Positions 856 through 15,615 of a stretch of DNA of 32,529 nucleotides are shown piece after piece. Source of the DNA: Kiritimatiellia bacterium (GTDB lineage Bacteria; Verrucomicrobiota; Kiritimatiellia; RFP12; UBA1067); assembly GCA_017450695.1 (NCBI GenBank), contig JAFSTA010000223.1, positions 1 through 32,529 of the forward strand, written 5' to 3'. Position 1 is the stretch's first letter. Every line of letters begins with the position of its first letter. The position numbers and the translations under genes were made by a program. Under the pieces are notes generated by a model. The model was not told the DNA's origin and ran no database searches. It saw only the letters and a program-made list of their open reading frames with translations.

Positions 856-1047
856 ATGACAATGGCTGGTTCCGTGCCAAATCCGCCATCGGCAGGAAAG
901 AAAAGCCGGACCGAATCGCTCGTTCGGCGTTTACACATGAATCCCGCTCGCGAAACGTGTTGGGACAAGCACAATCCAATCCGGCCGGAATATACGTTCA
1001 TCGGGATCCGTGGCATGGAAAGTTCCTCATTCCCTTTCGCGCTGTGA
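856..1047 (+). CDS. Possible small protein (63 aa) of unknown function
   Basis: This is a short frame starting MTMAGSVPNPPSAGKK and ending at TGA 1045-1047. It is preceded by a full AAGGAG (841-846) nine bases before the ATG. That is the best ribosome binding site in the area, much better than the one before brxA 34 bp downstream. The product is basic and proline-rich at its N-terminus. It has no membrane segment, and I recognise no motif in it. It could be a leader peptide coupling translation to brxA, or a chance frame. It lies just after the hairpin that would block its ribosome site. Confidence 0.3.
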   Translation: MTMAGSVPNPPSAGKKSRTESLVRRLHMNPARETCWDKHNPIRPEYTFIGIRGMESSSFPFAL

Positions 1048-1081
1048 ACGTGCCGCTTCAATATCGGGTCGAAATTTCACG

Positions 1082-1732
1082 ATGAGAGCGAACAAGCAAA
1101 ATAGCCCCTACAGTGCGGCGTTTACGGGATGCGGCTTCATGCTGGATGAAACCGTGGCGCTTCTGCCCATTCTGCAATCGCCCGACGCGGATGCGCTTCT
1201 CAAGGCGGAGGTCGAGGGCAACAATCTACTCCAGCTCGGCAAGGCCAAGACGCGTTCCCGCATGGTCGCGGAGTTCAGGCGCCGCTATCACGCATTGCCG
1301 CCCTCGTTCTGGAACTGGTTTCTCTCGCTTGATCGCGCGGGGCAGACCGTGGCGCTCTACTACTGCCTTATGCGCACCTACCTCATGCTGAAAGAGGTAC
1401 ACCTCAATCTCTTCCTCCCGCGCCTGAAATCGGCAAACCCCGTCGTCGCCAAGTCCGACGTGGATCGCCACATCCTCAAGATCGCCGCCTCGGACGCATT
1501 CGTCGAAAGCTGGTCGGACGCGACGAAGGCGAAAATCGCCGGAACTTGCCTTTCCTTCCTTCGTGCCGTGGGGATGCTCGAAGCGGCCACAGGCGCTCTC
1601 CATCCTGTCCCCGTTCCCGATGCGGTAGCCACCCGCTTCATTTCGCGTGGCGAAGCCTGGTACATGGAGGCACTTGGAATGCCGCTTTACGAGGTCAGCA
1701 GACTCTACCAGAGCGAGGTGTCAAAACCATGA
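1082..1732 (+). CDS. brxA: BREX protein BrxA (DUF1819 family)
   Basis: The product is 216 aa, about the usual size for BrxA, the small first protein of type I BREX phage-defence operons. It contains a tract rich in aromatic and basic residues (MVAEFRRRYHALPPSFWNWF, about residues 61-80) followed by helices, as in the DUF1819 family. Family members are known as small helical DNA-binding proteins. The ATG at 1082 (MRANKQNSPY) is chosen over an in-frame upstream ATG at 1010 because the family's start region resembles the shorter form. Neither start has a good Shine-Dalgarno. The stop overlaps the brxB start as ATGA (1729-1732), so the two are translationally coupled. The call rests on sequence character plus the canonical brxA-brxB-brxC-pglX order. 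Confidence 0.85.
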   Translation: MRANKQNSPYSAAFTGCGFMLDETVALLPILQSPDADALLKAEVEGNNLLQLGKAKTRSRMVAEFRRRYHALPPSFWNWFLSLDRAGQTVALYYCLMRTYLMLKEVHLNLFLPRLKSANPVVAKSDVDRHILKIAASDAFVESWSDATKAKIAGTCLSFLRAVGMLEAATGALHPVPVPDAVATRFISRGEAWYMEALGMPLYEVSRLYQSEVSKP

Positions 1733-2376
1733 TCCAAGAACTCTACAGCAAGCTGAACAACAACGAATTCCTCGCCCCTGGCGGAATCGCCTATAACTTC
1801 TATATCGTTCCCTACGAGGTACGAAAGGAAGCGGAGACGCTGGCCGACATCGATCATATCGTCGAGGATCTCAGGAGACCCACGGATTTTATCGACGTCC
1901 TCTCGCTCGACCTTTTCTCCGTGTTTCTGGAATACCTCGACGCAGACAAGTTCGGCAATCAAAGCAGATTGGCGTTTCTGCTGGATTCGGACGCCCGTGC
2001 GGAATCCGCGTATCTCCACACGAATGTGACCAAGTCGCTCTTTGAGAAAGCACACAGCGAGCAGTTCCGTGATTACGTGCATGCCAAGATCGTGGCGCAT
2101 TTTTCTCAGACAGATCCCGTACACAAACGCCCCTACGTGTTCTTGTGGGGTTTTGGCGCGATGTTCCCCTATCTGCGAGCCAACGAGTTTTTGATCGCTT
2201 ACGAGGCCGTGAATGACGCCAACCTCTACAAAGTGATCCTGTTCTATCCCGGAACGGTGCGCGACGGGCAGTTCTCGTTGTTTGGAGTCCTGAACGACCA
2301 GCACGCCTACCGTGCGCAGATACTGGAAATCGAATCCGAATCGAAAGGAACGAACCATCATGGAAAAACTGGGTGA
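1729..2376 (+). CDS. brxB: BREX protein BrxB (DUF1788 family)
   Basis: The product is 215 aa, starting MIQELYSKLNNNEF and ending ...QILEIESESKGTNHHGKTG. The length, the segment KRPYVFLWGFGAMFPYLRA (about residues 135-153) and the late FYPG motif fit DUF1788/BrxB, a required but biochemically poorly defined BREX component. The start codon overlaps the brxA stop (ATGA), and the 3' end overlaps brxC by 17 bp. Expression is therefore tightly linked to both neighbours. An in-frame ATG at 1546 lies inside brxA and is rejected. Confidence 0.88.
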   Translation: MIQELYSKLNNNEFLAPGGIAYNFYIVPYEVRKEAETLADIDHIVEDLRRPTDFIDVLSLDLFSVFLEYLDADKFGNQSRLAFLLDSDARAESAYLHTNVTKSLFEKAHSEQFRDYVHAKIVAHFSQTDPVHKRPYVFLWGFGAMFPYLRANEFLIAYEAVNDANLYKVILFYPGTVRDGQFSLFGVLNDQHAYRAQILEIESESKGTNHHGKTG

Positions 2377-5300
2377 ACTCTATTCCCGAAACGTGGAGGC
2401 ATCTCTCAATGCCGTCGTCTCCACGGGTGATACAACCGACCAGACAGTCCAGACAGAAATCAACGAGTACGTGTTTACCGACGATATCGTAAACGGCCTG
2501 TACAGGACACTGGAAGCGATAAAGAACGGTTCCACGAGCCACAACGGTGTATGGGTGAGCGGCTATTTCGGATCGGGCAAGTCCCATTTCCTCAAATATG
2601 TCAGCTACTGTCTCCGCAACATGGGCAATGCGATCTCCCGTATGACGGATGCCGTAAAGGAATCCCTTGCGGGTGACAATTTGGGTGTCGTGCCATTGGA
2701 GTGGGCGGGTGTGGCGGATTGGCTGGTGCAACATGCGGCATCCGTCAAGACGATCCTGTTCAACATGGGAGAATCAGGCGATTTCAACGCAAAGGAGGGC
2801 GAAGAGTTCCTGACCGTGTTCTGGAGGAAGTTCAACGAAATGCGCGGGTACAGCGGAGTCAATCTGCCGCTTGCCTATTTCTTGGAGCGTCCGCTCGATA
2901 AGGTCGGCAAGTTCGATGACTTCAAGGCGAAGATCGCGGAGAAGGGATATAACTGGGAGAATGATCGCAGCGATCTGGCGGGGATGAGTCTGGATACCGT
3001 CCTGATGGTAGCGAAGGACACCATGCCGGAACTGACGGTCGATGCCGTCCGGGAAAACATCATCCACAATCGTGTGGTGCTTTCCGTCTCGAATTTTATG
3101 GAGGATGTGAACGAATGGATCCTCGCGCAGGATCCGGATTGCCGTCTTGTCTTCTGTGTGGACGAGATTAGCCAATACATCAACAACCGCGTACAGCTGT
3201 TGCTGCAACTTCAGGAAATCGTGACCGCGTTCCACAACAAGTGTGGCGAGAAGGTCTGGCTCGTCTGCACGGCCCAGCAGGACTTGTCAGAAATCACCTC
3301 CGCGAGTGGGATCGGCGCGGCGAGCGCAGGGTACGGCAAGATTATGGGACGTTTCCCGATCATGGTACAGCTCTCGGCGTCATCTACCGAATTCATCACG
3401 CGCAAGCGCGTGTTGGCGAAAACGGCATCCGCCGCGATCGAACTGGGGCATTTCTACGACGAACAGAAAGACAAAATCAATCATTCCCAGTATGTGTTTC
3501 CGGCCGCTTATCCCGTCTATGCCGACCGTGATGACTTCATCGCCACCTATCCGTTCCTAGGCTGCCATTTCCGGCTCATGGGACAGGTGCTGCGCGCATT
3601 TCGCGACCGGAACTTCGTTGTCCAGAATGTTAAGGACAATGCGCGAAGCGTTCTGACTCTTACCCTTGATGTCGCAAAGGTAACCAGGAACTGCCAGATC
3701 GGAAAGTTCATCGCGTTCGACGAGTTTTTCAGCTGGAATCTCAAGACGGGACTCACGGCTCGCGCCAATTCCGTGATTCAGAACGCCCGGGAGTTGATCA
3801 AACAACGTGAGAACCCGGCATTCGCCGAGCGTGTTTTGAATGTGCTCTTCATGATCTGTCACCTTGACTATCAGGACGCGCAGACGTTCCCTGCGACAAT
3901 CGACAACTTAACTTCGCTGCTGATGACCGATCTCTCGACTTCACGAAAGACACTACGGGAACAGATCGAGGCGGAGGTGAGTTGGCTATGCGAGAAAAGC
4001 GTTCTGATGCGCGAGACCACCAAGGCCGGAACAGATCACTTCAAGTTCTACTCCAAGACTGAATCGGAGATTGATTGCCAGATCAAGGGCATTACGCCCG
4101 GACTTGGCGATCTCGCCTCGATATGGGAGAACCTGATATCCGAACGACTCGGAAGCGCGCTCAAGCCGAAGGTGACTTTCCACGCGACCAAGGTGTCCGT
4201 GGGCATGGACATCCTGGGGCGGCATCTCTTGAGCGGCAATGCGGACGTGAACATCGATCTGCGCATCAATTCGGGAGGCATGTCGCTGGGACAGTTCAGG
4301 CTCGGCAATCACGACACGACACTTGCTTTCTTCGTGAACGATCTGTGCAACGCCGACACGAAATTCCGTGACGCGCTCGATTCCTACTGCAGGTTCGATC
4401 TGTTCAGCAAGCACAATGCGCCCAACAGCCCCGAGGAAAAAGCGGCGTTCGAGGTGTTTCGTGACCGTGCGAAGAGACTCCGTTCAGACCGCCTGATTCC
4501 GGGCATGGAGAAGTTCCTGCTGGAAGCGCCGATCATCAGCGGACAAAATGACATTTCAACCTCGCCGACATCAAATCCCGCCAAGCGGTTCGAGGAGGCG
4601 CTTCAGAAACATCTTGAAATCCTCTATCCCAAGGCGCAGGCGGCTGAAAACCTTCCGCATACAGCCGTGACTCTTTCCGCCGACATTACGGGATGGCATG
4701 CGCCGCTTCCCGGCACTTCGCTTGCCGGTGCGGAGCGGATCGTCGAGGGCTATTTGAGCGGACTTTCCTCGCCGTACCCCATTGCCAGTGTGGTGGATTA
4801 CTTTCAGAAACGCCCCTACGGCTGGGACGAATATGCGACGCTTGCCGTCCTGAACCGTCTCGTGGTTTCCGAACATCGCCAATTCATCTACAATGGTTCG
4901 CCCAATCCGTCCCGCGAGACGGTGGCCGCCAACCTCGCGAAGAATACCGCGAACTTTTCCATTGTCACAAAGGCGGCGATTCCCAAAGAGACAATCGACG
5001 CGTTCCTGGGCGCAATGCGAAAACTTTTCGGGCATACGACGCTCCACAATGCGAGTCAGCAGACAAGCGAACTCGTTGCGCAAGCCAAGGAATTTTTGTC
5101 CGGGAAGACGGAAAGAATTCACACGGTGAAGGGCAAGACCGGGCCGCGCCCGTTCATCGCGACACCGGATGCCGTCTGCACGAAGTTCAGCGCCTGGGAA
5201 CAAATCGTGGATGTTCCCGCCTTCTTCGCCCAGGTCACCGATGAGGCACCCTCGCTCACGGCTGACTGGGACACCACCAAACAGGCGATGGGATTCGTCG

Positions 5301-5878
5301 AAGGAACCCAATGGGACAAGTATCTCGACATCCTCCGCTTTGTATCGCAAAATACGGAGAACGCCCTATTTCTCTCCGGAGCCGACAAGGAAAAGTTCGG
5401 GTATCTTGTCGCCGCAAAGGACGATACGCAACCGTGGAATAGCCTTCCGAGCTGGATCCAGATCAAGAAACAGCTCGAAGCGGCTTTCGAGGAATGCCGT
5501 CAGGAAAAACGCGCCGCCATCGAGGAGGTTTACACGTTCGTGTTCAACGAACTGGCGGAGATTGCGGAAAGTCTCGGCGTGGCGGAATCTCCCGTAGCCT
5601 TTGGCGCGGAGACGATTGCCGAGAAACAGAAGAGCGACTCGCTCATGGCGCTTGAGAACGCGATCAATTCCGCCCAAGCCTTCAAGGATAGGAAAATGCG
5701 GGAGATTATCGCCGCCCAACCTTCTGCCCCCTCTGCAAAACACGTCAAGAGTGTGAAGCTCGCGGTTTCTCATGCGACGCCCCTGAAGAACGAGGCTGAA
5801 GTGGACGCCTATCTGCGTGCGCTGAAACGGAAGCTGATGGCTGAGATCGACGGCGGTTTCGCGATTGTCATTCAGTAA
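2360..5878 (+). CDS. brxC: BREX P-loop ATPase BrxC
   Basis: The product is a 1172-aa large P-loop protein, the usual size of type I BrxC. The Walker A motif GYFGSGKS is at residues 68-75 and a Walker B-like LVFCVDE is at about 263-269, with the acidic pair D268-E269. The rest is long and mostly helical, with no other recognised catalytic motif. BrxC is thought to power or assemble the BREX complex and is needed for defence. The start ATG at 2360 (MEKLGELYS) lies 17 bp inside brxB; a more upstream ATG at 2312 is unlikely. The gap to pglX is 29 bp and contains an AAGGGGG ribosome site. Confidence 0.93.
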   Translation: MEKLGELYSRNVEASLNAVVSTGDTTDQTVQTEINEYVFTDDIVNGLYRTLEAIKNGSTSHNGVWVSGYFGSGKSHFLKYVSYCLRNMGNAISRMTDAVKESLAGDNLGVVPLEWAGVADWLVQHAASVKTILFNMGESGDFNAKEGEEFLTVFWRKFNEMRGYSGVNLPLAYFLERPLDKVGKFDDFKAKIAEKGYNWENDRSDLAGMSLDTVLMVAKDTMPELTVDAVRENIIHNRVVLSVSNFMEDVNEWILAQDPDCRLVFCVDEISQYINNRVQLLLQLQEIVTAFHNKCGEKVWLVCTAQQDLSEITSASGIGAASAGYGKIMGRFPIMVQLSASSTEFITRKRVLAKTASAAIELGHFYDEQKDKINHSQYVFPAAYPVYADRDDFIATYPFLGCHFRLMGQVLRAFRDRNFVVQNVKDNARSVLTLTLDVAKVTRNCQIGKFIAFDEFFSWNLKTGLTARANSVIQNARELIKQRENPAFAERVLNVLFMICHLDYQDAQTFPATIDNLTSLLMTDLSTSRKTLREQIEAEVSWLCEKSVLMRETTKAGTDHFKFYSKTESEIDCQIKGITPGLGDLASIWENLISERLGSALKPKVTFHATKVSVGMDILGRHLLSGNADVNIDLRINSGGMSLGQFRLGNHDTTLAFFVNDLCNADTKFRDALDSYCRFDLFSKHNAPNSPEEKAAFEVFRDRAKRLRSDRLIPGMEKFLLEAPIISGQNDISTSPTSNPAKRFEEALQKHLEILYPKAQAAENLPHTAVTLSADITGWHAPLPGTSLAGAERIVEGYLSGLSSPYPIASVVDYFQKRPYGWDEYATLAVLNRLVVSEHRQFIYNGSPNPSRETVAANLAKNTANFSIVTKAAIPKETIDAFLGAMRKLFGHTTLHNASQQTSELVAQAKEFLSGKTERIHTVKGKTGPRPFIATPDAVCTKFSAWEQIVDVPAFFAQVTDEAPSLTADWDTTKQAMGFVEGTQWDKYLDILRFVSQNTENALFLSGADKEKFGYLVAAKDDTQPWNSLPSWIQIKKQLEAAFEECRQEKRAAIEEVYTFVFNELAEIAESLGVAESPVAFGAETIAEKQKSDSLMALENAINSAQAFKDRKMREIIAAQPSAPSAKHVKSVKLAVSHATPLKNEAEVDAYLRALKRKLMAEIDGGFAIVIQ

Positions 5879-5907: not shown

Positions 5908-8900
5908 ATGAACCTGACGAAAATCGAGAACTTTGCGAAAAACATCCGACGTAGTCTGATGGAGGGTGTGGATGCCGCCCTCACCCTGCTGGGGTTTACG
6001 GATCAAATGCCGGAAGCGCCTATGGCCGTGCAGGGCGGTTGGACCTATCGTGGCAAGGTGGTTGATGATGTGGAGTTTGGCGCGCGGTGGCAGCGGCTCA
6101 AGGATTTCATCGCACACGAAGAGGACGGGCGCAAGGCCGCCGTGGAACGCGCGGCGTACACCTGGTTCAATCGGCTTGTCGCGATTCGGATTCTCGCCAA
6201 GTGCGGTCTTGTGCAGCCTCAGCTCGAATGGGCGGACCAGGCGGCGCATATCCCCGTGATTGTCCATCGGATGCGCACGGGCGGCTGGAAACCCAACCTG
6301 ACGCCCGGCGAGGATGCCGCCTTGGCGCGTATCCGCCACGATCCGACCCAAACGCGCGAGCAGTTCGCAATCCTCGCGGGCGCGTTCTGCCGCGAAACGC
6401 CCATCCTCCAGGCGTCGTTTGGCGAGATCGATGACTGGACGATGCTCCTTGTCCCGACCAATCTGCTCGCGGAGGGCGGGCTTGTCGATTGCCTCAACGA
6501 CGCCACGCTCCTTTCCGATGAGGACTACCGACAGGACGAGCTGATCGGCTGGCTCTACCAGTACTACATCGCCGAGCGCAAGGCCGAGGTGTACGACGGG
6601 TTCAAAAAGAAAAAGAAGGCTGGTGTCGCCGAGATCCCTGCCGCCACGCAGATATTCACCCCGGACTGGATTGTGAAGTATCTCGTGGAGAATACGTTGG
6701 ATTCCGCCGATCCCACCTCAACATCCTTTCTCGATCCCTGCTGCGGATCGGGGCACATTCTGCTGGAGGGATTCCGCCATCTCCTTGCGGCATACGATGA
6801 GCTGGGCTATTCGAAGCGTGTCGCCGTCGAGAGAATTTTCGCCAATAACCTGACGGGGATCGACATCGACCCGCGCGCGCGGCAGCTCTCCACATTCGCG
6901 CTGTTGCTCGCGGCGGCAAAGGAGGACGATTCGTTTGCCGATGCGCACGCGCTCCCGCGTGTGTTTGATACGGCGGGGGCTGTTATCGGCGATTCTATCG
7001 CCGATAACGGGACTCTCGAAAACTACATCGCCAAGACGCTCGGCACATCGAAAGAGAAGGAGATAGGGGAAATCCGTGCCGCCCTTTCGCTTCTCCGCGA
7101 CAGGGGAGAGAACATCGGATCGCTACTCAAGCTCGACCTCGCGCCCGAGACGCGGGCGCTCATCAAAACACGGCTCCCGGATGTGGAGGACAAGGTGCTG
7201 CGACGTGCGCTGGATCGGTTGCTTGTGCTTACGGGCGAATACGATGCGCTCGTCACCAATCCGCCGTATCTCGGCGCAGGGAACCTCAACGCCACCCTGA
7301 AGGAATATCTGGAAAAACACTACAAGGACGGTAAGGGCGACCTCTTCTCGGCATTCATTCTGCGGCTCATCGAAATGTGCAAGACCGGTGGGCGCGTGGG
7401 CATGATCACGATGCAGAGCTGGATGTTTCTCTCTTCTTTTGAAGCGATGCGAAAATGTCTCTTGGAAAAATGCACCATCCTCTCGATGGCTCATCTGGGG
7501 GCGCACGCTTTCGATTCTCTCGGTGGCGAAGTGACACAGACCACTGCCTTTGTACTGGCCAATGAGTTTTACCCTGGTTTTGCGGGAACATACTACCGCC
7601 TTGTGGATGGAAAAAGTGAAAAGGAAAAGAAGGAGTTGTTTTCCAAAATAGAACCATTCCATGTCTCAGCTGACAATTTCAAAAAGATTCCAGGCACTCC
7701 CTTCGCCTATTGGGTGAGCGAGAAGATGCTCAAGGCGTTTGAGGAGGGGAAGCCACTGTCAGAATATGCTTTGCCGCGGCAAGGGATAGCAACTGGCGAT
7801 AATAATCGGTTTTTGAGGTTGTGGTATGAAGTAAGTCTTTCAAGGCTTGGTTTTGACGGACGGCAAGGTGAACATACAACAAAGAAGTGGTATCCTTGCA
7901 GAAAGGGAGGAAGTTATCGGAGGTGGTATGGGAACTATGAGATTGTCCTTGATTGGGAAAATGATGGAAAGAGACTGAAGGAGTTTTCTGGATCCGTAAT
8001 AAGAAATCCCAATTATCATTTTCTTGAGGGAATAACATGGACATCAATTGGGCATACTTTCTCAATGCGGTACGCGCCAGCTGGTTTTCTCTTTGAAAGT
8101 AAGGGTGCGACATGTGTACCAGTAGGGGATTTCTCACTAAAGTTTTCGCTGGCACTTTGCAATACCGTTGTGGCAGATAAGTTCTTGGAACTACTTGCTC
8201 CTACATTAGATTTCCATGAGGGACCAGTTGGCAATCTCCCGACGCTTTTTGTACCAAGGATTCAAAGACAAGTGGAATCACATATTGATGAATTGATTTC
8301 CCTCTCCCGCTCCGATTGGGACGAATATGAGACATCTTGGGATTTTAAGGTGAATCCGCTTGTGCAGGAGGGGTTACGGAAGGGCGCGGGCGGAATGTCG
8401 CTTGAAGATGCGTGGCGGTCGGTCTTTGCCCGGCGCATGGAATGGGCGGCACGCATGAAAGAGCTGGAAGAGGAAAACAACCGACTCTTCATCGAAGCGT
8501 ACGGGCTGGAGGGCGAGCTGTCGCCGACGGTGGCGTGGAAGGATGTGTCGATCACGGGGAATCCGTATTATCGGTATAAGATCGACGGGGAGGGGTTCCG
8601 TTCGGCGCAATATTATTGCGCCGAACAGGACTGCGCCGAACAGGACATAGGGCCGGCCATGCCGCAGATGCCGCCCGAATTGGAGGCGCGGGCGCGGGCG
8701 GATGCGGTGCGCGAGTTGCTATCCTACGGAATGGGCGTTCTGATGGGGCGGTATTCGCTGGAGAAGGAAGGGCCGATCCTTGCCTCGCAGGGCGAAACCA
8801 TACAAGACTACAGGGAACGGATACACGGGGCGGGGAGAATCAGTCCGGATGAAGACGGCGTCATCCCCGCCATCGCGCTGGACGGAGACTTTTTCCAAGA

Positions 8901-9396
8901 CAATCTCCTGTACCGTATGCGCGAGTTCCTGTCGGCGGCATTCGGCAGCGACAGGATCAATGTCAACCTCAACTTCATCGAGGCGGCGCTGGACTGCAAG
9001 ATCGACAAATACCTGACGGACAAGTTCTTCGATGACCATGCGAAGATGTACCGCAAGCGGCCGATCTACTGGCTCTTCGAATCACCGAAAGGCTATTTTT
9101 GCGCATTCGCCTATATGCACCGCATGACGGGGGCGACGGCGGGACTGATCCGCAACAAGTACTTGCTGCCGTACATCGCGCATTTGGAGAAGTGCCATGT
9201 CTCCGAGGCAGCGAAGGGCGCGGCCATGACGAATGCGGAACGCAAGCGCGTGAAAGAAATTGAAAAAGCGATTGCGGACTGCAAGAAGTACGACCTTGCC
9301 CTCCATGACCTTGCGGAAAAGTCCATCGCCATCGACCTCGATGACGGCGTGGCCGTGAACCGGGAGAAATACAAATCTGTCTTGGCGAAAATCTAG
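5908..9396 (+). CDS. pglX: BREX adenine-specific DNA methyltransferase PglX
   Basis: The product is a 1162-aa N6-adenine methyltransferase that marks host DNA in BREX systems. The AdoMet-binding motif I is DPCCGSGH (D276-H283) and the catalytic motif IV is NPPY (451-454); both are intact. The N-terminal 250 residues are the helical region typical of PglX. Residues from about 545 to 810, where target recognition is expected, are encoded by DNA of much lower GC than the flanks. The coding sequence contains two palindromic insertions that keep the frame: one encoding IGDSIADN at 6982-7008, and a hairpin plus a 15-bp tandem duplication at 8600-8646. No frameshift is seen, so the gene should be functional. 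The start follows brxC by 29 bp. Confidence 0.95.
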   Translation: MNLTKIENFAKNIRRSLMEGVDAALTLLGFTDQMPEAPMAVQGGWTYRGKVVDDVEFGARWQRLKDFIAHEEDGRKAAVERAAYTWFNRLVAIRILAKCGLVQPQLEWADQAAHIPVIVHRMRTGGWKPNLTPGEDAALARIRHDPTQTREQFAILAGAFCRETPILQASFGEIDDWTMLLVPTNLLAEGGLVDCLNDATLLSDEDYRQDELIGWLYQYYIAERKAEVYDGFKKKKKAGVAEIPAATQIFTPDWIVKYLVENTLDSADPTSTSFLDPCCGSGHILLEGFRHLLAAYDELGYSKRVAVERIFANNLTGIDIDPRARQLSTFALLLAAAKEDDSFADAHALPRVFDTAGAVIGDSIADNGTLENYIAKTLGTSKEKEIGEIRAALSLLRDRGENIGSLLKLDLAPETRALIKTRLPDVEDKVLRRALDRLLVLTGEYDALVTNPPYLGAGNLNATLKEYLEKHYKDGKGDLFSAFILRLIEMCKTGGRVGMITMQSWMFLSSFEAMRKCLLEKCTILSMAHLGAHAFDSLGGEVTQTTAFVLANEFYPGFAGTYYRLVDGKSEKEKKELFSKIEPFHVSADNFKKIPGTPFAYWVSEKMLKAFEEGKPLSEYALPRQGIATGDNNRFLRLWYEVSLSRLGFDGRQGEHTTKKWYPCRKGGSYRRWYGNYEIVLDWENDGKRLKEFSGSVIRNPNYHFLEGITWTSIGHTFSMRYAPAGFLFESKGATCVPVGDFSLKFSLALCNTVVADKFLELLAPTLDFHEGPVGNLPTLFVPRIQRQVESHIDELISLSRSDWDEYETSWDFKVNPLVQEGLRKGAGGMSLEDAWRSVFARRMEWAARMKELEEENNRLFIEAYGLEGELSPTVAWKDVSITGNPYYRYKIDGEGFRSAQYYCAEQDCAEQDIGPAMPQMPPELEARARADAVRELLSYGMGVLMGRYSLEKEGPILASQGETIQDYRERIHGAGRISPDEDGVIPAIALDGDFFQDNLLYRMREFLSAAFGSDRINVNLNFIEAALDCKIDKYLTDKFFDDHAKMYRKRPIYWLFESPKGYFCAFAYMHRMTGATAGLIRNKYLLPYIAHLEKCHVSEAAKGAAMTNAERKRVKEIEKAIADCKKYDLALHDLAEKSIAIDLDDGVAVNREKYKSVLAKI
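6982..7008. repeat. REP-like palindrome inside pglX
   Basis: GTTATCGGCGAT (6982-6993) and ATCGCCGATAAC (6997-7008) are perfect 12-bp arms around a 3-base loop (TCT). The element encodes VIGDSIADN in frame. The same core (ATCGGCGAT-N3-ATCGCCGAT) occurs in the transposase gene at 9823-9843, with an arm-swapped version at 9573-9591. Confidence 0.8.
7540..8340 (+). other. Low-GC block in the putative target-recognition region of pglX
   Basis: By hand count, sampled 60-base lines between 7801 and 8220 are about 35-42% GC. The line at 8401-8460 is about 62%, and the rest of the gene looks similar. Methyltransferase motifs I and IV lie outside the block. This fits replacement of the specificity segment by recombination with a foreign allele. 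Confidence 0.6.
8600..8646. repeat. Hairpin plus 15-bp tandem duplication inside pglX
   Basis: GTTCGGCGCAA (8600-8610) and TTGCGCCGAAC (8616-8626) are perfect 11-bp arms around TATTA. The right arm starts a 15-bp unit (TGCGCCGAACAGGAC) present twice, at 8617-8631 and 8632-8646, and encoding CAEQD twice. The unit length is a multiple of three, so copy-number change would not break the frame. Confidence 0.8.
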
Positions 9397-9436: not shown

Positions 9437-10603
9437 ATGACTGATTATCCTCTGAAAGAAACAATCCATTCCATGCTTCGGCGGTGTGTCGGCTGGGACT
9501 ACACGAAGCCCTGCATCTACATGATCACCGTCGTGCTGGCTGACCGGCGCGGCAAGGCGCTGGGTACCGTTCTCGCCGATAGGATCGGCGATCGCGGGCT
9601 TCCCGCCGCCGCCCATTGCGAACCGACCGACCTGGGGCGGGCGGTGGAAGGATGCTGGGAGGCAATCCCGCGCTTCTATCCGCAGGTGCAGATTCTCGGC
9701 AAACAGGTGATGCCGGACCATTTCCACGGAATCCTGTGGGTGAAAGAGCCGCTGGACTGCCATTTGGGACAGGTGGTCAAAGGCTTCAAGCTGGGTTGCA
9801 ACAAGGCGGCGCGGGCTCTATCATCGGCGATGGCATCGCCGATAACAGGGCTCGGCAAGGGGCTATTCGCGGAGGGCTTTCAGGACACCATCCTTTTCAG
9901 CAGAGGGCAACTCGAAAAGATGATCACCTACATCCAGGCGAACCCGTTACGCCTTGCCGTCAAGCGCGCGATGCCGGAGTTGTTCACGATGGTACGAGAT
10001 GTCCGGATCCCGGTGATCCTGTCGCCGACGGCAGAACCCGCCGACCTGCATTTCTCCGCCATCGGCAACCTGGGGCTGCTGGACCGACCGTTGGTACAGG
10101 TGCAATGCTCACGGCGACACCTCAACTACAGGCGCGTTCCCAAGCCCGGCGGCGGGTTGAAGATCGCGCGGGATGCACAAGGCGAGCCCATCGTTGAATT
10201 CGCCACGAGCGAATACGAGAACCGGCGCGACGAACTGCTGGCGGCAGGCCGTCACGGCGCGGCACTCATTTCACCCTGCATCTCCGACGGGGAGCGGCAG
10301 ATCGCCCGCGAGGCGTTGAAGGAGGGACTGCCGCTCGTCACCATGCAGAACAAGGGTTTCTCGAAACTGCAAAAGCCAAGCGGCCGGTATTTCGACGCCT
10401 GTGCCGCCGGGCGGCTTCTCATGATTGCCCCTGCGGCTTGGCCGCACATGGTCGGTGAAAAGCGGATGACCCGTGACGATGCCCTCGCCATGAATCGCCT
10501 CTGCCAATGGTTGGCGGGGGAGGGGGCCGCCACGATTGACTACAAGGGGCACACACCGGTCAATATCGACCGCATGGCGCTCGACGCCACAAGGAGTCCG
10601 TGA
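9437..10603 (+). CDS. Y1 (HUH) transposase, RAYT-like, with an extra C-terminal domain, inside the BREX operon
   Basis: The product is 388 aa. The N-terminal half is a Y1/IS200-type single-strand transposase domain. The metal-binding HUH signature is H95-F-H97 in VMPDHFHGILWV, and the likely catalytic tyrosine is Y165 in TYIQANP. This matches the REP-associated tyrosine transposase (RAYT) group. Residues about 260-365 form a second domain (LISPCISDGERQIAREAL; later KPSGRYFDACAAGRLLMIAP) that looks Rossmann-like and reminiscent of DprA/SMF. That reading is only tentative. The ATG follows GGGAGAG by about nine bases. The stop overlaps the pglZ start as TGATG. No IS ends or target duplications are seen, so it looks like a resident operon gene and not a fresh insertion. 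Two REP-like palindromes lie within it. Confidence 0.85.
   Translation: MTDYPLKETIHSMLRRCVGWDYTKPCIYMITVVLADRRGKALGTVLADRIGDRGLPAAAHCEPTDLGRAVEGCWEAIPRFYPQVQILGKQVMPDHFHGILWVKEPLDCHLGQVVKGFKLGCNKAARALSSAMASPITGLGKGLFAEGFQDTILFSRGQLEKMITYIQANPLRLAVKRAMPELFTMVRDVRIPVILSPTAEPADLHFSAIGNLGLLDRPLVQVQCSRRHLNYRRVPKPGGGLKIARDAQGEPIVEFATSEYENRRDELLAAGRHGAALISPCISDGERQIAREALKEGLPLVTMQNKGFSKLQKPSGRYFDACAAGRLLMIAPAAWPHMVGEKRMTRDDALAMNRLCQWLAGEGAATIDYKGHTPVNIDRMALDATRSP
9573..9591. repeat. REP-like palindrome inside the transposase gene, copy 1
   Basis: TCGCCGAT (9573-9580) and ATCGGCGA (9584-9591) are 8-bp arms with loop AGG. The arms are the same words as in the palindrome at 6982-7008 but in swapped order. 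In frame it encodes part of LADRIGDRG. Confidence 0.7.
9823..9843. repeat. REP-like palindrome inside the transposase gene, copy 2
   Basis: ATCGGCGAT (9823-9831) and ATCGCCGAT (9835-9843) are 9-bp arms with loop GGC. It is followed by AACAGGGC; read on the other strand, the element and its left flank (CCTGTTATCGGCGAT) nearly match the pglX copy at 6982-7008. It is translated as part of LSSAMASPITG. Confidence 0.75.
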
Positions 10604-13167
10604 TGAAAGCGGAAGAAATCAAAAAGCATTTCGAAACAAGCGGAAGAAACGTCGCGTTTCTATTCGCGGAAGATATCTTCGTGCGTGACGAGATCATGCG
10701 GTTCGACCTGGGAGCCGATACAGAAATCGTGGAATACAAAGGCGATGCGTTCGTGCTCAAGCACAAGATACGCACGTTACCGAAAGAGAAGCGCCTTGTG
10801 GTACTGGTATCGGGACCGTCGCCGCTCGCAACGGGAGAAGACACGGGGTCGTTTCCGCTTCTCGGCGAACTTATGGCGAACGGAGAGTGCAAGGCGCAGA
10901 CGCCGGTCTCGTTCATGGCGGCGAACGGAATGAACACGGGCGATGCCGCACTTGCGGGAATCGTGTCGCGCCATCTTGCAGAGATGACGACGGGAAAAGG
11001 CGATGCGGTGTTCGGCGGGCAGTTCGGGACCGGGTTCACGGCGGAGAAGGCGGCGCAGGGACTGGTGAGCATTCATCTCGGCGCGAAGGAGATGTGGGAG
11101 TGGCGGGAGATATTTGCGAACCTGTTCCTCTGCGATGCCGAAGAGGTAAAGAATCCGAAAAACGGATCGAAGGCGGCGTTCCTGTTCAAATCAGGATTCG
11201 GCGACGTGTTGAAAGAAGTCCAGGGGAAATGCCGATGGTATTTTGGCGCGGAGGGGCAGACGCCGAAAGGCGGAGAAATCGGAAAGAGGGGCTTTTTCTC
11301 TACGGCGGTGGAGCGGCTCGTGTACAATGCGGTGACGCGTCCCCTGCCGGTCGCTGCGGGCGATCCCTATACGACGCGGAAAGAGACGGATGCAGGGAGA
11401 CTGGATCGGATGGAAGGATTCCTGCGCTGGGCTTCAGAGAGCCTGCCGGAGCAGAAGCGGCGAAAGTTCTTCGGCGCGGTCGAGGCATTGTCGGCGCAAG
11501 TCAAGGGCAAGGGCATTGTTGCGGCATACGGCGCGACGGCAAGGTACGGGTTCTATTTCCAGCGGGTTTCGAAGGAGATTCTGCGCACATTGGCAGCGGA
11601 CGGATTCGGGGCTGATTCGGCGACGAAGGCAAAGGCGGCGGAGCGCGTGGCGAGCTCGGCGGTGGCCGATGGCGATACGGTGGCGCTCGCGCGCACGGAG
11701 GCGGCGATGGCCCGGTTCTATGTGGAGCGGGCGAAGATCGCCACGTTCGCGCGGAATACGCGGGAGGAGATGCTTTCCGCATACACGGGCGGATGGTGGC
11801 GCCTCGACAGGGAGTACAGGCTGGCGCTGGAGCACCTTGCCTCAATCGCGAATGACGAGTGCCGTGCTGTGGTGGAGAGGGCAAAGGAGAAGTTTGAGAC
11901 GGATGCCCAAGGGACATTCAACGAAATGAACCTTGCCTGGACAAACACGCTCAATGCGGCGGGTGGTGCCGTAGGCATAGAGGGGGTGTTGGCGCAAGAG
12001 GACTTCTACGAGAAGAAGAAAGACCCGTCGGTGAAGATGGCCGTGGTGGTGAGCGACGCCCTGCGGTACGAGGTGGCGCTGGAGGTGATGGACCGGCTGA
12101 ACGCGAACCGGGGGGCCGTCACGATGGAGGCGGGAATCGCGCATCTGCCGACCGAGACCCAGTACACGAAAGCGACATTGCTGCCGCACACTTCAATCGA
12201 ATTCCAGAGGGGCCAGGCGCTGCGGCTCGACGGCGGCAAACCGACGGTGACGACGGCCGACAAGCAGGGCATTCTTCAGGCGCACTGCACGGAGGGGGTG
12301 TGCGTGACGGCGAAAGATCTGAAGGGCAAGGCACAGACTGAGAAAAGAGCCATTTTCAAGAACAGGGTCGTCTATGTTTTCCACGACTCCATCGACCATA
12401 CCGGACACGGTGCGGCAACCGGACAAGAGATGGCCGGGGCGTGTCGCGAGGCTGTGGACGAGTTGGTCAAGCTGATACAGAACATCCAGAACACATGCAA
12501 TGTCAACCATGTGTGGCTGGTGGCAGACCATGGCTTTCTGCTCTGCGACCGCGACATCCCGGACGGCGAAAAGATTCCGGTGGAGGAGAATGAAGACGCC
12601 AAGGAGAAGACGACGCGCTACTACTTCACGGAGCGGGCGGATCCCATCCATGCCATCTTGAAGGTGGCGCTTCCGGATGGCGGATTCGTGGCGGTGCCGG
12701 CGGGGACGCGTCGCTTCAAGGCCAACGGAAGCTATACGTTCGTGCATGGCGGCGCGTCGCTACAGGAGATGGTCATCCCGGTCATGCATTCGCGGCTGCT
12801 CGGCACGGACGCGACGAGGAGCCGTGCGAAGGTGGGCGTGACGATACTCGGTACCAACCTGCGCGTACAGTCGAGTCGGATCAAGTTCGAGTTGTTGCAG
12901 AACGAGGCCGTTTCCGCGGAGATGCAGGAACGGACGGTGCTTTGCGCCCTGTATGCGGATTCCGAGATGGTCAGCAACGAAGTGAGGATCAAGCTCGACT
13001 CCACGAGTGCGTCGCTGGATGATCGGAAGAAGGTCGTCGAGCTTGTGCTGAACGGGGAGACGGCGGGCATCCTCACGCTCAAGGTCTTCGCGGATGGCGA
13101 TTCGTTAAACGCGCTTGACGAAAAGACCGTAACCAACGAAACCCTTATCCCTATGGACAACTGGTAA
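10603..13167 (+). CDS. pglZ: BREX alkaline-phosphatase-superfamily protein PglZ
   Basis: The product is 854 aa, the usual size for type I PglZ, a member of the alkaline phosphatase superfamily required for BREX. Metal-site motifs are visible: VVVSDALRYE (481-490) and LVADHGF (639-645), with VFHDSIDHTGHG between them. The first 400 residues are helical and charged, as expected for the N-terminal BREX-specific part. The ATG at 10603 has AAGGAG six bases upstream. The GTG at 10600 is in frame but too close to that site. The start overlaps the transposase stop (TGATG), so its translation probably depends on the transposase gene. It is followed after 15 bp by the brxL-type gene. Confidence 0.93.
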   Translation: MKAEEIKKHFETSGRNVAFLFAEDIFVRDEIMRFDLGADTEIVEYKGDAFVLKHKIRTLPKEKRLVVLVSGPSPLATGEDTGSFPLLGELMANGECKAQTPVSFMAANGMNTGDAALAGIVSRHLAEMTTGKGDAVFGGQFGTGFTAEKAAQGLVSIHLGAKEMWEWREIFANLFLCDAEEVKNPKNGSKAAFLFKSGFGDVLKEVQGKCRWYFGAEGQTPKGGEIGKRGFFSTAVERLVYNAVTRPLPVAAGDPYTTRKETDAGRLDRMEGFLRWASESLPEQKRRKFFGAVEALSAQVKGKGIVAAYGATARYGFYFQRVSKEILRTLAADGFGADSATKAKAAERVASSAVADGDTVALARTEAAMARFYVERAKIATFARNTREEMLSAYTGGWWRLDREYRLALEHLASIANDECRAVVERAKEKFETDAQGTFNEMNLAWTNTLNAAGGAVGIEGVLAQEDFYEKKKDPSVKMAVVVSDALRYEVALEVMDRLNANRGAVTMEAGIAHLPTETQYTKATLLPHTSIEFQRGQALRLDGGKPTVTTADKQGILQAHCTEGVCVTAKDLKGKAQTEKRAIFKNRVVYVFHDSIDHTGHGAATGQEMAGACREAVDELVKLIQNIQNTCNVNHVWLVADHGFLLCDRDIPDGEKIPVEENEDAKEKTTRYYFTERADPIHAILKVALPDGGFVAVPAGTRRFKANGSYTFVHGGASLQEMVIPVMHSRLLGTDATRSRAKVGVTILGTNLRVQSSRIKFELLQNEAVSAEMQERTVLCALYADSEMVSNEVRIKLDSTSASLDDRKKVVELVLNGETAGILTLKVFADGDSLNALDEKTVTNETLIPMDNW

Positions 13168-13182
13168 GACAGGAGAAGAAAG

Positions 13183-15615
13183 ATGACGGAGATAGACAAC
13201 GAAGTGCTGGAAGCGGACAAGAAACTCAATGTGAAGGTACTGGAGAGATTCGCGAAGTCCGTGGTGCGCAAAGACCTTGCCTTTCAGGTGAAGGGGAATC
13301 TGCCCGTGCCCACGTATGTGATCGAGTATCTGCTCGCGCAATTCTGTCAGTCAAGTGACGAACAGGAGATTGCCAAGGGCATGGAGGAGGTGAAGGAGAT
13401 CGTTCGCGAACGCTATTTCAACCGGGCGGACAACGAAATCATCAAAGGACGCATTCGGGAGAAGGGTTCGTATCTGATCATCGACAAGGTGAGCGCGTAT
13501 CTTGATGCAGGGGCGAACTGCTATCGGTGCAAGTTGGAAAATCTCGGGCTTGGCGGACTCAATATCCCGGATCAGGTCGTCCGGGCGAACGAGAAGCTGC
13601 TTTCAGGCACGGGGGTGTGGTCGCTCATCAAGATGAAATTCGATCCGGGCGACGATGCGGTTGATCGGTGGGTCATCGAAGAGTACAAGCCGATCCAGAT
13701 CGCCAACGTGGATGTGGGGGAATACAAGGCACACCGCAAGGAGTTCACGACAGATGAATGGATCGACTTCCTGATCCATTCGTCCGGGCTGAACCCGTGC
13801 GTCCTCAACCGGCGCGAGAAGCTGCTTGTCATCGCGAGGTTCTTGCCATACGTGGAGAACAACTTCAACTTTATGGAACTGGGGCCGAAAGGGACGGGAA
13901 AGAGCCATGTGTTCCAGGACTTCTCCCCTTATGGCGTACTGGTGAGCGGAGGCGACATGACAAGCGCCAGGCTGTTTGTGAAAGAGGGCAAGCAGGAGTC
14001 GCTGGGGCTTGTGGCATTTTGGGACAATGTCACCTGGGATGAATATGAACAACGGAAAGGAACGCGCATCAAAGACCCGTCCATTGTTGCGACAATGCAG
14101 AACTATCTTGCCAACAAGGCGTTCAACAGGGGTGGTGCGACGCATGTGGCATCGGCTTCCATGTCCTTCGTGGGCAACACGAAACATACCGTCGATTACA
14201 TGATGCGCCGGACGCATCTTTTTGAATCAATCCCCTCGGACTTCTTTGTCAACGGCGGCGCTTTCCTCGACCGCATCCATCTGTATAATCCCGGATGGGA
14301 GATTTCGCCGCTTAAGAAAAGCAGTTTCTCGGTGGGTTATGGCATGATCACGGACTATTTCGCGGCGATTCTCCATGCCATGCGCAACGAGGACCGCTCG
14401 GGGGAGATGGCGAAGTTTGCGAAGTTCAGCAGCACGTTAAGCGAACGCGACCACCTTGCCGTTCGCAAGACTTTCTCCGGCATGATGAAGCTGCTGTTTC
14501 CCGATGGCGCTTATACGACGGACGAGGCGTTTGAGATCATCGACTTCGCGGCGGAAGGACGCAAGCGGGTGAAGGAGCAGCTGTACAAGATCGACGAGAC
14601 CTTCAGGGCGGAGCCGGCGGTGTTCGAGTACACGATCCTGTCAAGCGGAGAGAAGCGGCAGATCAAGACGCTGGAAGAGATCGAGAACGTAGTGGCGGGT
14701 GACGAGTGCCCGGTGGCTAGCGGTGCGTGCCCGGTGGATCGTGACGGCAATCACGAACTAGCCACTGACCACTACCCGACGGCCACGAATTTTGGCCCGA
14801 AGCATGTTTATATCCAGACCAACCAGCGCGGTGTCTCGTACAAGTCGCTGTTCGGAGACTATCTGAGGGGCGCTCAGGAGATCGTCATCGTCGATCCCTA
14901 CATCCACAAACCGTACCAGATAGACAATCTCACCGACCTGTTGCAGCTGATCCTGGACTTGAACGCAGACTCAGAGGATCTGCGTGTAGAGTTGCACACG
15001 AGCGTGAACGAGGCCGATCCTGCGGGGCAGAACGAGGCGTTTGAATCGCTCAAGGAGGATTTGGCGCGTGAGGGTGTGGAGTTCGATTTCACCTACGACG
15101 CCACGCATGACAGGGCGATTCTGGTTGACGACAAGTGGGCGATCAACCTTGGACGCGGGTTGGACATCTTTGAATGGTTTCAACGATATTCGCTGAAGAA
15201 GACGTCACAGCGGATGCGCAAGTGCCGCGACTTCCAGATGACAATCGCGCCGATCCGGCCGACGGTCAGCGCGGATGAGCTAATCGCCGGCGTCAAGGCG
15301 GGGCAGGTCAAGTCCAATAGCACCGACGGCTATCTTGTGCTTGCGGGACAGTTCTACGATGAGATCGAGGCCGGCACGAAGACCGTCGAGTACCGTGATT
15401 TCACGAAGTACAACCTCAAGCGCACAATCGGCATCACAACGATCCGGTTCAATCGCGGCTACGGGCACCCCGGCCAGCCGCCCGCGCAGATGCGCTGGGA
15501 GGTGGAGAAGGTCGTGTTTCAGGATGCCGCCAACAACGAGTGCGATCCTATGACCGCGCCGGACGGTTTTGTCCCCGTGAGGATAGCGATCTATCTTGGG
15601 AAGCGAATCGGGTAA
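13183..15615 (+). CDS. brxL: BrxL-type AAA+ protein with MIT_C/PLD-like and ASCH domains replacing the Lon-like domain
   Basis: The product is 810 aa, longer than typical type I BrxL (about 680). Residues 1-500 match the BrxL AAA+ core: Walker A GPKGTGKS (234-241), Walker B-like LVAFWDN (276-282), and a sensor-like GNTKH further on. D281 is followed by N282 where a glutamate is usual. After GRKRVKEQLYKIDE and a short repeat-derived linker (about 508-535), the expected Lon-protease-like domain is absent. Instead about 540-690 resembles the MIT_C phospholipase-D-like fold (IVIVDPYIHKPYQ; HDRAILVDDKWAINLGRGLD). About 715-808 is an ASCH domain with the signature GxKxxExR (G731, K733, E736, R738). 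ASCH belongs to the PUA-like superfamily that also contains modified-base readers. AGGAG lies seven bases before the ATG. In other BREX systems BrxL is a DNA-binding AAA+ ring. The AAA+ and ASCH calls are firm; MIT_C is likely. Confidence 0.88.
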   Translation: MTEIDNEVLEADKKLNVKVLERFAKSVVRKDLAFQVKGNLPVPTYVIEYLLAQFCQSSDEQEIAKGMEEVKEIVRERYFNRADNEIIKGRIREKGSYLIIDKVSAYLDAGANCYRCKLENLGLGGLNIPDQVVRANEKLLSGTGVWSLIKMKFDPGDDAVDRWVIEEYKPIQIANVDVGEYKAHRKEFTTDEWIDFLIHSSGLNPCVLNRREKLLVIARFLPYVENNFNFMELGPKGTGKSHVFQDFSPYGVLVSGGDMTSARLFVKEGKQESLGLVAFWDNVTWDEYEQRKGTRIKDPSIVATMQNYLANKAFNRGGATHVASASMSFVGNTKHTVDYMMRRTHLFESIPSDFFVNGGAFLDRIHLYNPGWEISPLKKSSFSVGYGMITDYFAAILHAMRNEDRSGEMAKFAKFSSTLSERDHLAVRKTFSGMMKLLFPDGAYTTDEAFEIIDFAAEGRKRVKEQLYKIDETFRAEPAVFEYTILSSGEKRQIKTLEEIENVVAGDECPVASGACPVDRDGNHELATDHYPTATNFGPKHVYIQTNQRGVSYKSLFGDYLRGAQEIVIVDPYIHKPYQIDNLTDLLQLILDLNADSEDLRVELHTSVNEADPAGQNEAFESLKEDLAREGVEFDFTYDATHDRAILVDDKWAINLGRGLDIFEWFQRYSLKKTSQRMRKCRDFQMTIAPIRPTVSADELIAGVKAGQVKSNSTDGYLVLAGQFYDEIEAGTKTVEYRDFTKYNLKRTIGITTIRFNRGYGHPGQPPAQMRWEVEKVVFQDAANNECDPMTAPDGFVPVRIAIYLGKRIG
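14707..14765 (+). repeat. Intergenic-type repeat embedded in the brxL linker
   Basis: TGCCCGGTGG occurs at 14707-14716 and 14728-14737. GTGGCTAG (14713-14720) is inverted at 14758-14765 (CTAGCCAC). The style (GGTGGCTAGCGG, CTAGCCACTGACCACTACCCG) resembles the non-coding repeats at 18602-18634 and 21960-22015. It encodes a low-complexity linker between the AAA+ and PLD-like domains without breaking the frame. Confidence 0.55.

Follow-up and report, generated by a model that had tools for sequence, protein, structure and literature searches.

The Acinetobacter BrxL (8emc/8emh), which represents the canonical form of this BREX protein, consists of an N-terminal domain, an AAA+ core and an inactive Lon-like domain at the C-terminus. 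A 2026 survey of type 1 BREX reported that, in 1,030 of the 2,913 taxa with BrxL, an HKD-type endonuclease domain carrying an HRD variant of the motif stands where the Lon-like domain would be (PMC12839542). This form, BrxL-HKD, is represented in PADLOC by a full-length model (PDLC02508), and its nuclease activity is a prediction of the survey. ASCH and related PUA-type domains have been found on other modification-based defence systems: ASCH is fused to HsdS, standalone ASCH or EVE proteins occur with type I restriction-modification (RM) systems (PMC7641849), and an ASCH/PUA reader is fused to DUF3780 in type 2 BR systems (PMC12839542). These systems pair the domain with a specificity or accessory subunit. 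The modification-dependent enzyme VcaM4I, an EVE-HNH protein, likewise joins a PUA-type reader to a nuclease.

Here we describe a brxL gene in a 32,529-nucleotide window (GenBank assembly GCA_017450695.1, contig JAFSTA010000223.1) from a metagenome-assembled genome (MAG) of a Kiritimatiellia bacterium. We show that a member of a divergent ASCH family is fused in frame to BrxL-HKD at the former position of the brxL stop codon, and that this ASCH family is a recurrent partner, sometimes a fused one, of restriction and modification systems across this family of gut bacteria. In the window it is joined to BrxL; HsdR and a type IIG/ISP specificity protein are its fusion partners elsewhere in the family.

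The BREX operon and the BrxL-HKD core

The window carries a complete type 1 BREX operon, in which all six core genes lie together on the forward strand in the order brxA, brxB, brxC, pglX, a RAYT-like gene, pglZ and brxL. The first gene, brxA (1010..1732), matches Pfam BrxA (E 2e-25) and PADLOC BrxA. The open frame of brxB (1723..2376; Pfam BrxB, E 3e-19) begins at 1546 and the BrxB match begins near 1730, with PADLOC BrxB covering residues 63-260 of the 1546-2376 frame. The product of brxC (2312..5878; 1188 aa) scores 639 bits with NCBIfam BREX_BrxC (cut-off 400) and has a Walker A motif at residues 84-91, while the N6-adenine methyltransferase encoded by pglX (5908..9396; 1162 aa) scores 996 bits with BREX_1_MTaseX (cut-off 500) and has NPPY at 451. 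PglZ (10600..13167; 855 aa) was identified by Pfam (E 4e-37) and PADLOC. The RAYT-like (REP-associated tyrosine transposase-like) gene between pglX and pglZ (9437..10603, forward strand; NCBIfam REP_Tyr_transpos, E 7e-10, below the cut-off) is probably not part of the BREX mechanism; its relatives were also found near other ASCH loci (L035, L038 and L104).

The last gene, brxL (13183..15615), is an open frame of 810 aa with an ATG start, supported by an ORF check, Pfam and PADLOC. Its product scores 481 bits with NCBIfam TIGR02688 (cut-off 329) and shares with the canonical protein, over about 460 aligned residues, the N-terminal domain (residues 22-153, 13246..13641; Pfam BrxL_N, E 6e-40) and the AAA+ ATPase (residues 163-476, 13669..14610; Pfam BrxL_ATPase, E 1e-112), the latter with the Walker A sequence GPKGTGKS at residues 234-241. 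By sequence, the solved BrxL structures 8emc and 8emh cover no more than residues 12-471, and the matches that follow are to MITD1 structures at residues 540-686. No Lon-like domain was found after the ATPase, the alignments to 8emc and to PADLOC PDLC02506 ending at residues 471-502. In its place lies an MIT_C domain (residues 550-688, 14830..15246; Pfam MIT_C, E 1e-37), which was matched to MITD1 by sequence and by fold and in which a motif scan found an intact HxRx4D catalytic-type motif (HDRAILVD, residues 642-649, 15106..15129). MIT_C is a phospholipase D (PLD)-like domain at the C-terminus of MIT proteins; in the BrxL of the window, the whole domain is placed at residues 540-690.

The AlphaFold2 model of residues 500-810 had a mean pLDDT of 86, with values above 90 across most of both C-terminal domains. 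A Foldseek search of this model against the PDB returned MITD1 MIT_C first (TM by target 0.86-0.88). Phospholipase D enzymes came next, followed by the ASCH proteins 3iuw and 1xne, and there was no Lon protein among the 50 matches listed. The first-pass annotation, made from the letters of the DNA, had read the protein as an AAA+ core followed by a PLD-like MIT_C and an ASCH domain instead of a Lon-like domain. This order is borne out by Pfam, by the motifs at residues 642-649 and 731-738 and by the structure model, in which residues 540-808 gave MITD1 MIT_C and ASCH matches and, among those listed, no Lon-like fold, and residues 715-808 took up the ASCH fold.

The same annotation had also proposed an effector logic different from that of standard type I BREX, and here its two parts fared differently. 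PDLC02508 covers residues 14-688 of the BrxL in the window, and the two share the N-terminal domain, the AAA+ core, a PLD-like domain for the Lon-like one, the HRD version of the HKD motif and the type 1 operon; the MIT_C region is the published BrxL-HKD replacement and a putative nuclease. BrxL-HKD was also found at 16 of the 26 BrxL loci sampled in the phylum, with HxRx4D in all 16. Given the publication, the PADLOC model and this frequency, the PLD-like domain in place of Lon is therefore not new. The ASCH part of the proposal stood as new for BrxL: the protein in the window has 118 additional residues, which include the ASCH domain, whereas the other HKD-type BrxLs sampled end no more than about 17 residues after the PLD-like domain.

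The C-terminal tail is a divergent ASCH domain

The predicted ASCH domain (residues 715-810, 15325..15612) carries the signature GxKxxExR as GTKTVEYR at residues 731-738 (15373..15396), located by a motif scan, and the G, K, E and R of the signature are invariant across 14 homologues. A Pfam search gave no direct match of the tail to the ASCH model (PF04266), which relatives of the tail reach at E 0.04 to 0.0007, under the bit cut-off. Standard annotation misses the family because its scores fall below this cut-off, and a PF04266 search of 21 close genomes was empty, which shows how the family escapes annotation.

Profile-profile comparisons linked the tail to a phage family resembling PHROG_625 (Prob 99.3), this phage family to bona fide Pfam-ASCH proteins above the cut-off (Prob 95.8) and the tail directly to the latter (Prob 77). 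A free-standing homologue of the tail from another genome (G057; 255 aa) was modelled with a pLDDT of 88, and its top four PDB matches in Foldseek were all ASCH proteins, namely 3iuw chains B and A (E 0.0014, TM up to 0.69), ZmASCH from Zymomonas mobilis (5gus) and 1xne. Run against PDB sequences, an hmmsearch with the tail family yielded just one unrelated, weak demethylase match. Taken together, the profile-profile steps and the predicted structures confirm the assignment of residues 715-810 as an ASCH domain, and an annotation accident is unlikely. The tail family has the same fold and a GxKxxExR-type motif in common with 3iuw, ZmASCH, 1xne and YqfB, and it differs from the ASCH superfamily proteins in having its own sequence, below the Pfam cut-off, and in being fused to or adjoining restriction enzymes.

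PHROG_625, listed as a family of unknown function, is an ASCH-type family of many phages (L084-L099 and L168), so phages encode relatives of the domain that their hosts attach to restriction systems.

The ASCH family as a partner of restriction systems

In a search with the tail-family profile, relatives turned up in 32 of the 162 genomes of the order. The ASCH genes lie downstream of type I, type III, BREX and Hma loci. Among close-family ASCH loci with a readable neighbourhood, 12 of 13 adjoin restriction or other defence genes, comprising type III Mod-Res, type I Hsd, BREX, Hma (DUF1156 + DUF499) and helicase or IetA-like AAA genes. DNA methyltransferase genes (PF01555, PF02384) occur within 10 kb at 8 of these 13 loci against 5.7% expected per site (binomial p ~1e-7, an approximate value that is uncorrected for clustering).

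The family is also found as a fused domain. ASCH forms the C-terminus of type I HsdR at L100:1100-4564, which belongs to the same genome as the window (G000:C163), and at L101:975-4436 (G056:C276), and it is fused to a type IIG/ISP specificity protein in three further genomes (G070, G071 and G088; L108, L112 and L114). The HsdR and type IIG/ISP fusions have a common linker-plus-ASCH cassette, 40% identical over about 100 aa. At L039, HsdR is followed by a separate ASCH gene, and the HsdR body is 55% identical to those of the L100 and L101 fusions. Together with the BREX pair described below, this pair shows that both systems thus occur in separate and fused states. In the genome of the window, ASCH is paired three times: as a fusion with BrxL, as a fusion with HsdR, and as a free-standing protein that follows a type III system.

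Several further features of these loci were observed. An Hma-type locus (DUF1156 methylase and DUF499 ATPase, L042:1390-7102) has an ASCH protein downstream. Two ASCH proteins have extra parts: one of 497 aa (L041:8730-10223) has two tandem ASCH domains, and one of 566 aa (L042:7684-9384) has a zinc-ribbon-like N-terminal part. Short proteins of repeats such as YYGxDGxYRGY recur beside ASCH genes (L043:7975-8379, L044:9695-10117, L050:2723-3334 and L039:11850-12437). Truncated ASCH remnants were found at L049:9714-9935 and L050:3391-3576, suggesting that the module has been gained and lost repeatedly.

Origin and rarity of the BrxL-ASCH fusion

The closest BrxL, which is unfused, is encoded in the same operon of the rumen genome RUG14463 (G085). 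This protein is 78% identical over residues 1-690 and ends in ...MTIAPIQ where the BrxL in the window continues; a separate 239-aa ASCH gene lies about 1 kb downstream of its brxL on the same strand. The fusion joint maps to 15252..15258 on the forward strand, the DNA similarity to the G085 brxL stopping at 15254, the site of the G085 stop codon. An N-terminal domain of about 115 residues, found in the free-standing ASCH proteins, is absent from the BrxL fusion. The tail is 66% identical to ASCH proteins that accompany type I and type III systems and 49% identical to the G085 ASCH protein; the tree of ASCH domains is poorly resolved over most of its extent and names no donor for the tail. As possible internal starts for a separate ASCH product, residues 660-740 offer only ATG 678, ATG 686 and GTG 719, none with an obvious ribosome-binding site, and a fused product is therefore assumed.

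The tail shows a purifying signal, with a dN/dS of about 0.23-0.26 against free-standing relatives. A three-point estimate, which is rough as dS is near saturation, gave about 0.4 on the branch of the tail and about 0.12 for the free-standing relatives, and the raised value may reflect relaxed constraint after fusion.

Residues 693-810 are absent from all 25 other BrxLs checked in the phylum, and the fusion is known from one MAG only. Beyond the phylum, our searches for it covered one genome-collection scan with short peptides, plasmids and viral contigs. The plasmids contained many MIT_C-type BrxLs and no ASCH relative; the combined MIT_C and ASCH region gave no match in the viral contigs, in which the ASCH family alone has phage relatives. 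A full-text literature search found no paper pairing 'ASCH domain' with BREX, and the mention of ASCH in PMC12839542 concerns DUF3780 of another system. The ASCH tail is, as far as we have searched, new for BrxL.

Proposed role of the ASCH tail

Most likely, the tail senses nucleic acid or a modified base and thereby gates the nuclease, and for the whole proposal, a BrxL-HKD whose nuclease is licensed or restrained by base-state sensing through the fused ASCH domain, we estimate a probability of about 0.5. BrxL would assemble as an AAA+ ring on DNA, in which the HxRx4D domains of neighbouring subunits would pair into a nuclease. The ASCH domain of each subunit would bind DNA, or less likely RNA, in the GxKxxExR cleft and sense the state of the bases, thereby licensing the nuclease on foreign DNA or holding it back on host DNA. 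In the relatives, a separate ASCH protein presumably acts in the same way without a covalent link, docking through its N-terminal domain, and fusion to BrxL would dispense with this docking domain. Such a protein would resemble VcaM4I in joining a candidate reader to a candidate nuclease, and would differ from it in that the motor is the BREX AAA+ core, the nuclease is PLD-like and the modified-base reader is putative. Reading of modified bases by ASCH is suggested by its kinship to the EVE/YTH readers and by the ASCH-HsdS and RM associations (PMC7641849), and the recurrent partnership of the family with restriction systems supports, as an idea, nucleic-acid sensing beside a modifying enzyme. 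What the domain would read may be PglX methylation, a phage modification or RNA. Several points weigh against the sensor proposal. The fusion occurs in a single MAG and in none of the other 25 BrxLs of the phylum, among the ASCH proteins that have been characterised are an ssRNA nuclease and an ac4C amidohydrolase and not DNA-base readers, the dN/dS of about 0.4 may mean relaxed constraint, and ASCH genes may in part move along with mobile cargo, the RAYT-like genes for example.

The most serious competitor, which we regard as improbable, is that the tail is a passenger, acquired when a read-through or a deletion happened to fuse brxL with a defence-island gene, and tolerated with no role in BREX. 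Its occurrence in one genome, the decayed ASCH fragments elsewhere in the same family (L050 and L049) and the rough three-point dN/dS near 0.4 speak for it. However, parallel ASCH fusions to HsdR and to the type IIG/ISP protein argue against it, as do the retained frame and signature residues, a dN/dS well below 1 and the well-folded predicted domain.

Less probable still is an RNA-acting module, a nuclease or binder of ssRNA that would serve as a backup or abortive effector and not as a DNA-modification sensor. ZmASCH, which is among the nearest solved folds, cuts ssRNA (PMC5615036, which lists Tyr47, Lys53 and Ser128 for this ribonuclease), and the ASCH superfamily is linked mostly to RNA; on the other hand, the ZmASCH activity is weak, and the constant partners of the tail family are DNA restriction-modification machinery. 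We consider it similarly unlikely that the domain has no part in recognising target DNA and is instead an antitoxin-like brake or regulator, silencing the nuclease in host cells, or a decoy aimed at phage proteins. One proposal gives toxin-antitoxin-like roles to ASCH and EVE proteins encoded near RM systems (PMC7641849), and phages encode relatives of the same domain (PHROG_625), but fusion to the effector would be equally expected of a sensor.

An amidohydrolase stripping acyl groups from modified cytosine is very improbable even though YqfB, which has this type of activity, is an ASCH protein (PMC9599836), because by octapeptide register its catalytic Thr24 corresponds to Glu in GTKTVEYR and in 14 of 14 family members, and the tail lacks the YqfB-type Lys-Thr-Glu triad with Thr in the octapeptide. 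An assembly chimera is equally remote: the sequence comes from a single MAG with 3% estimated contamination, but the joint preserves the reading frame at the site of the former stop codon, adds an intact ASCH domain of the right kind and mirrors fusions in other genomes.

Returning to the sensor, a natural BrxL carrying both a candidate nuclease and a candidate reader offers a direct handle on how BREX restricts and on what BrxL responds to. A broader form of the proposal, which we advance tentatively and hold to be doubtful as a whole, is that one lineage-specific ASCH family is an interchangeable sensing module, separate or fused, for BREX, type I, type III, type IIG/ISP and Hma systems, which in BrxL would directly license a ring-shaped motor-nuclease in line with how the DNA is modified. 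That a single ASCH family accompanies BREX, type I, type III, type IIG and Hma systems within one bacterial family, and three of these within a single genome, suggests that they have an accessory recognition module in common.
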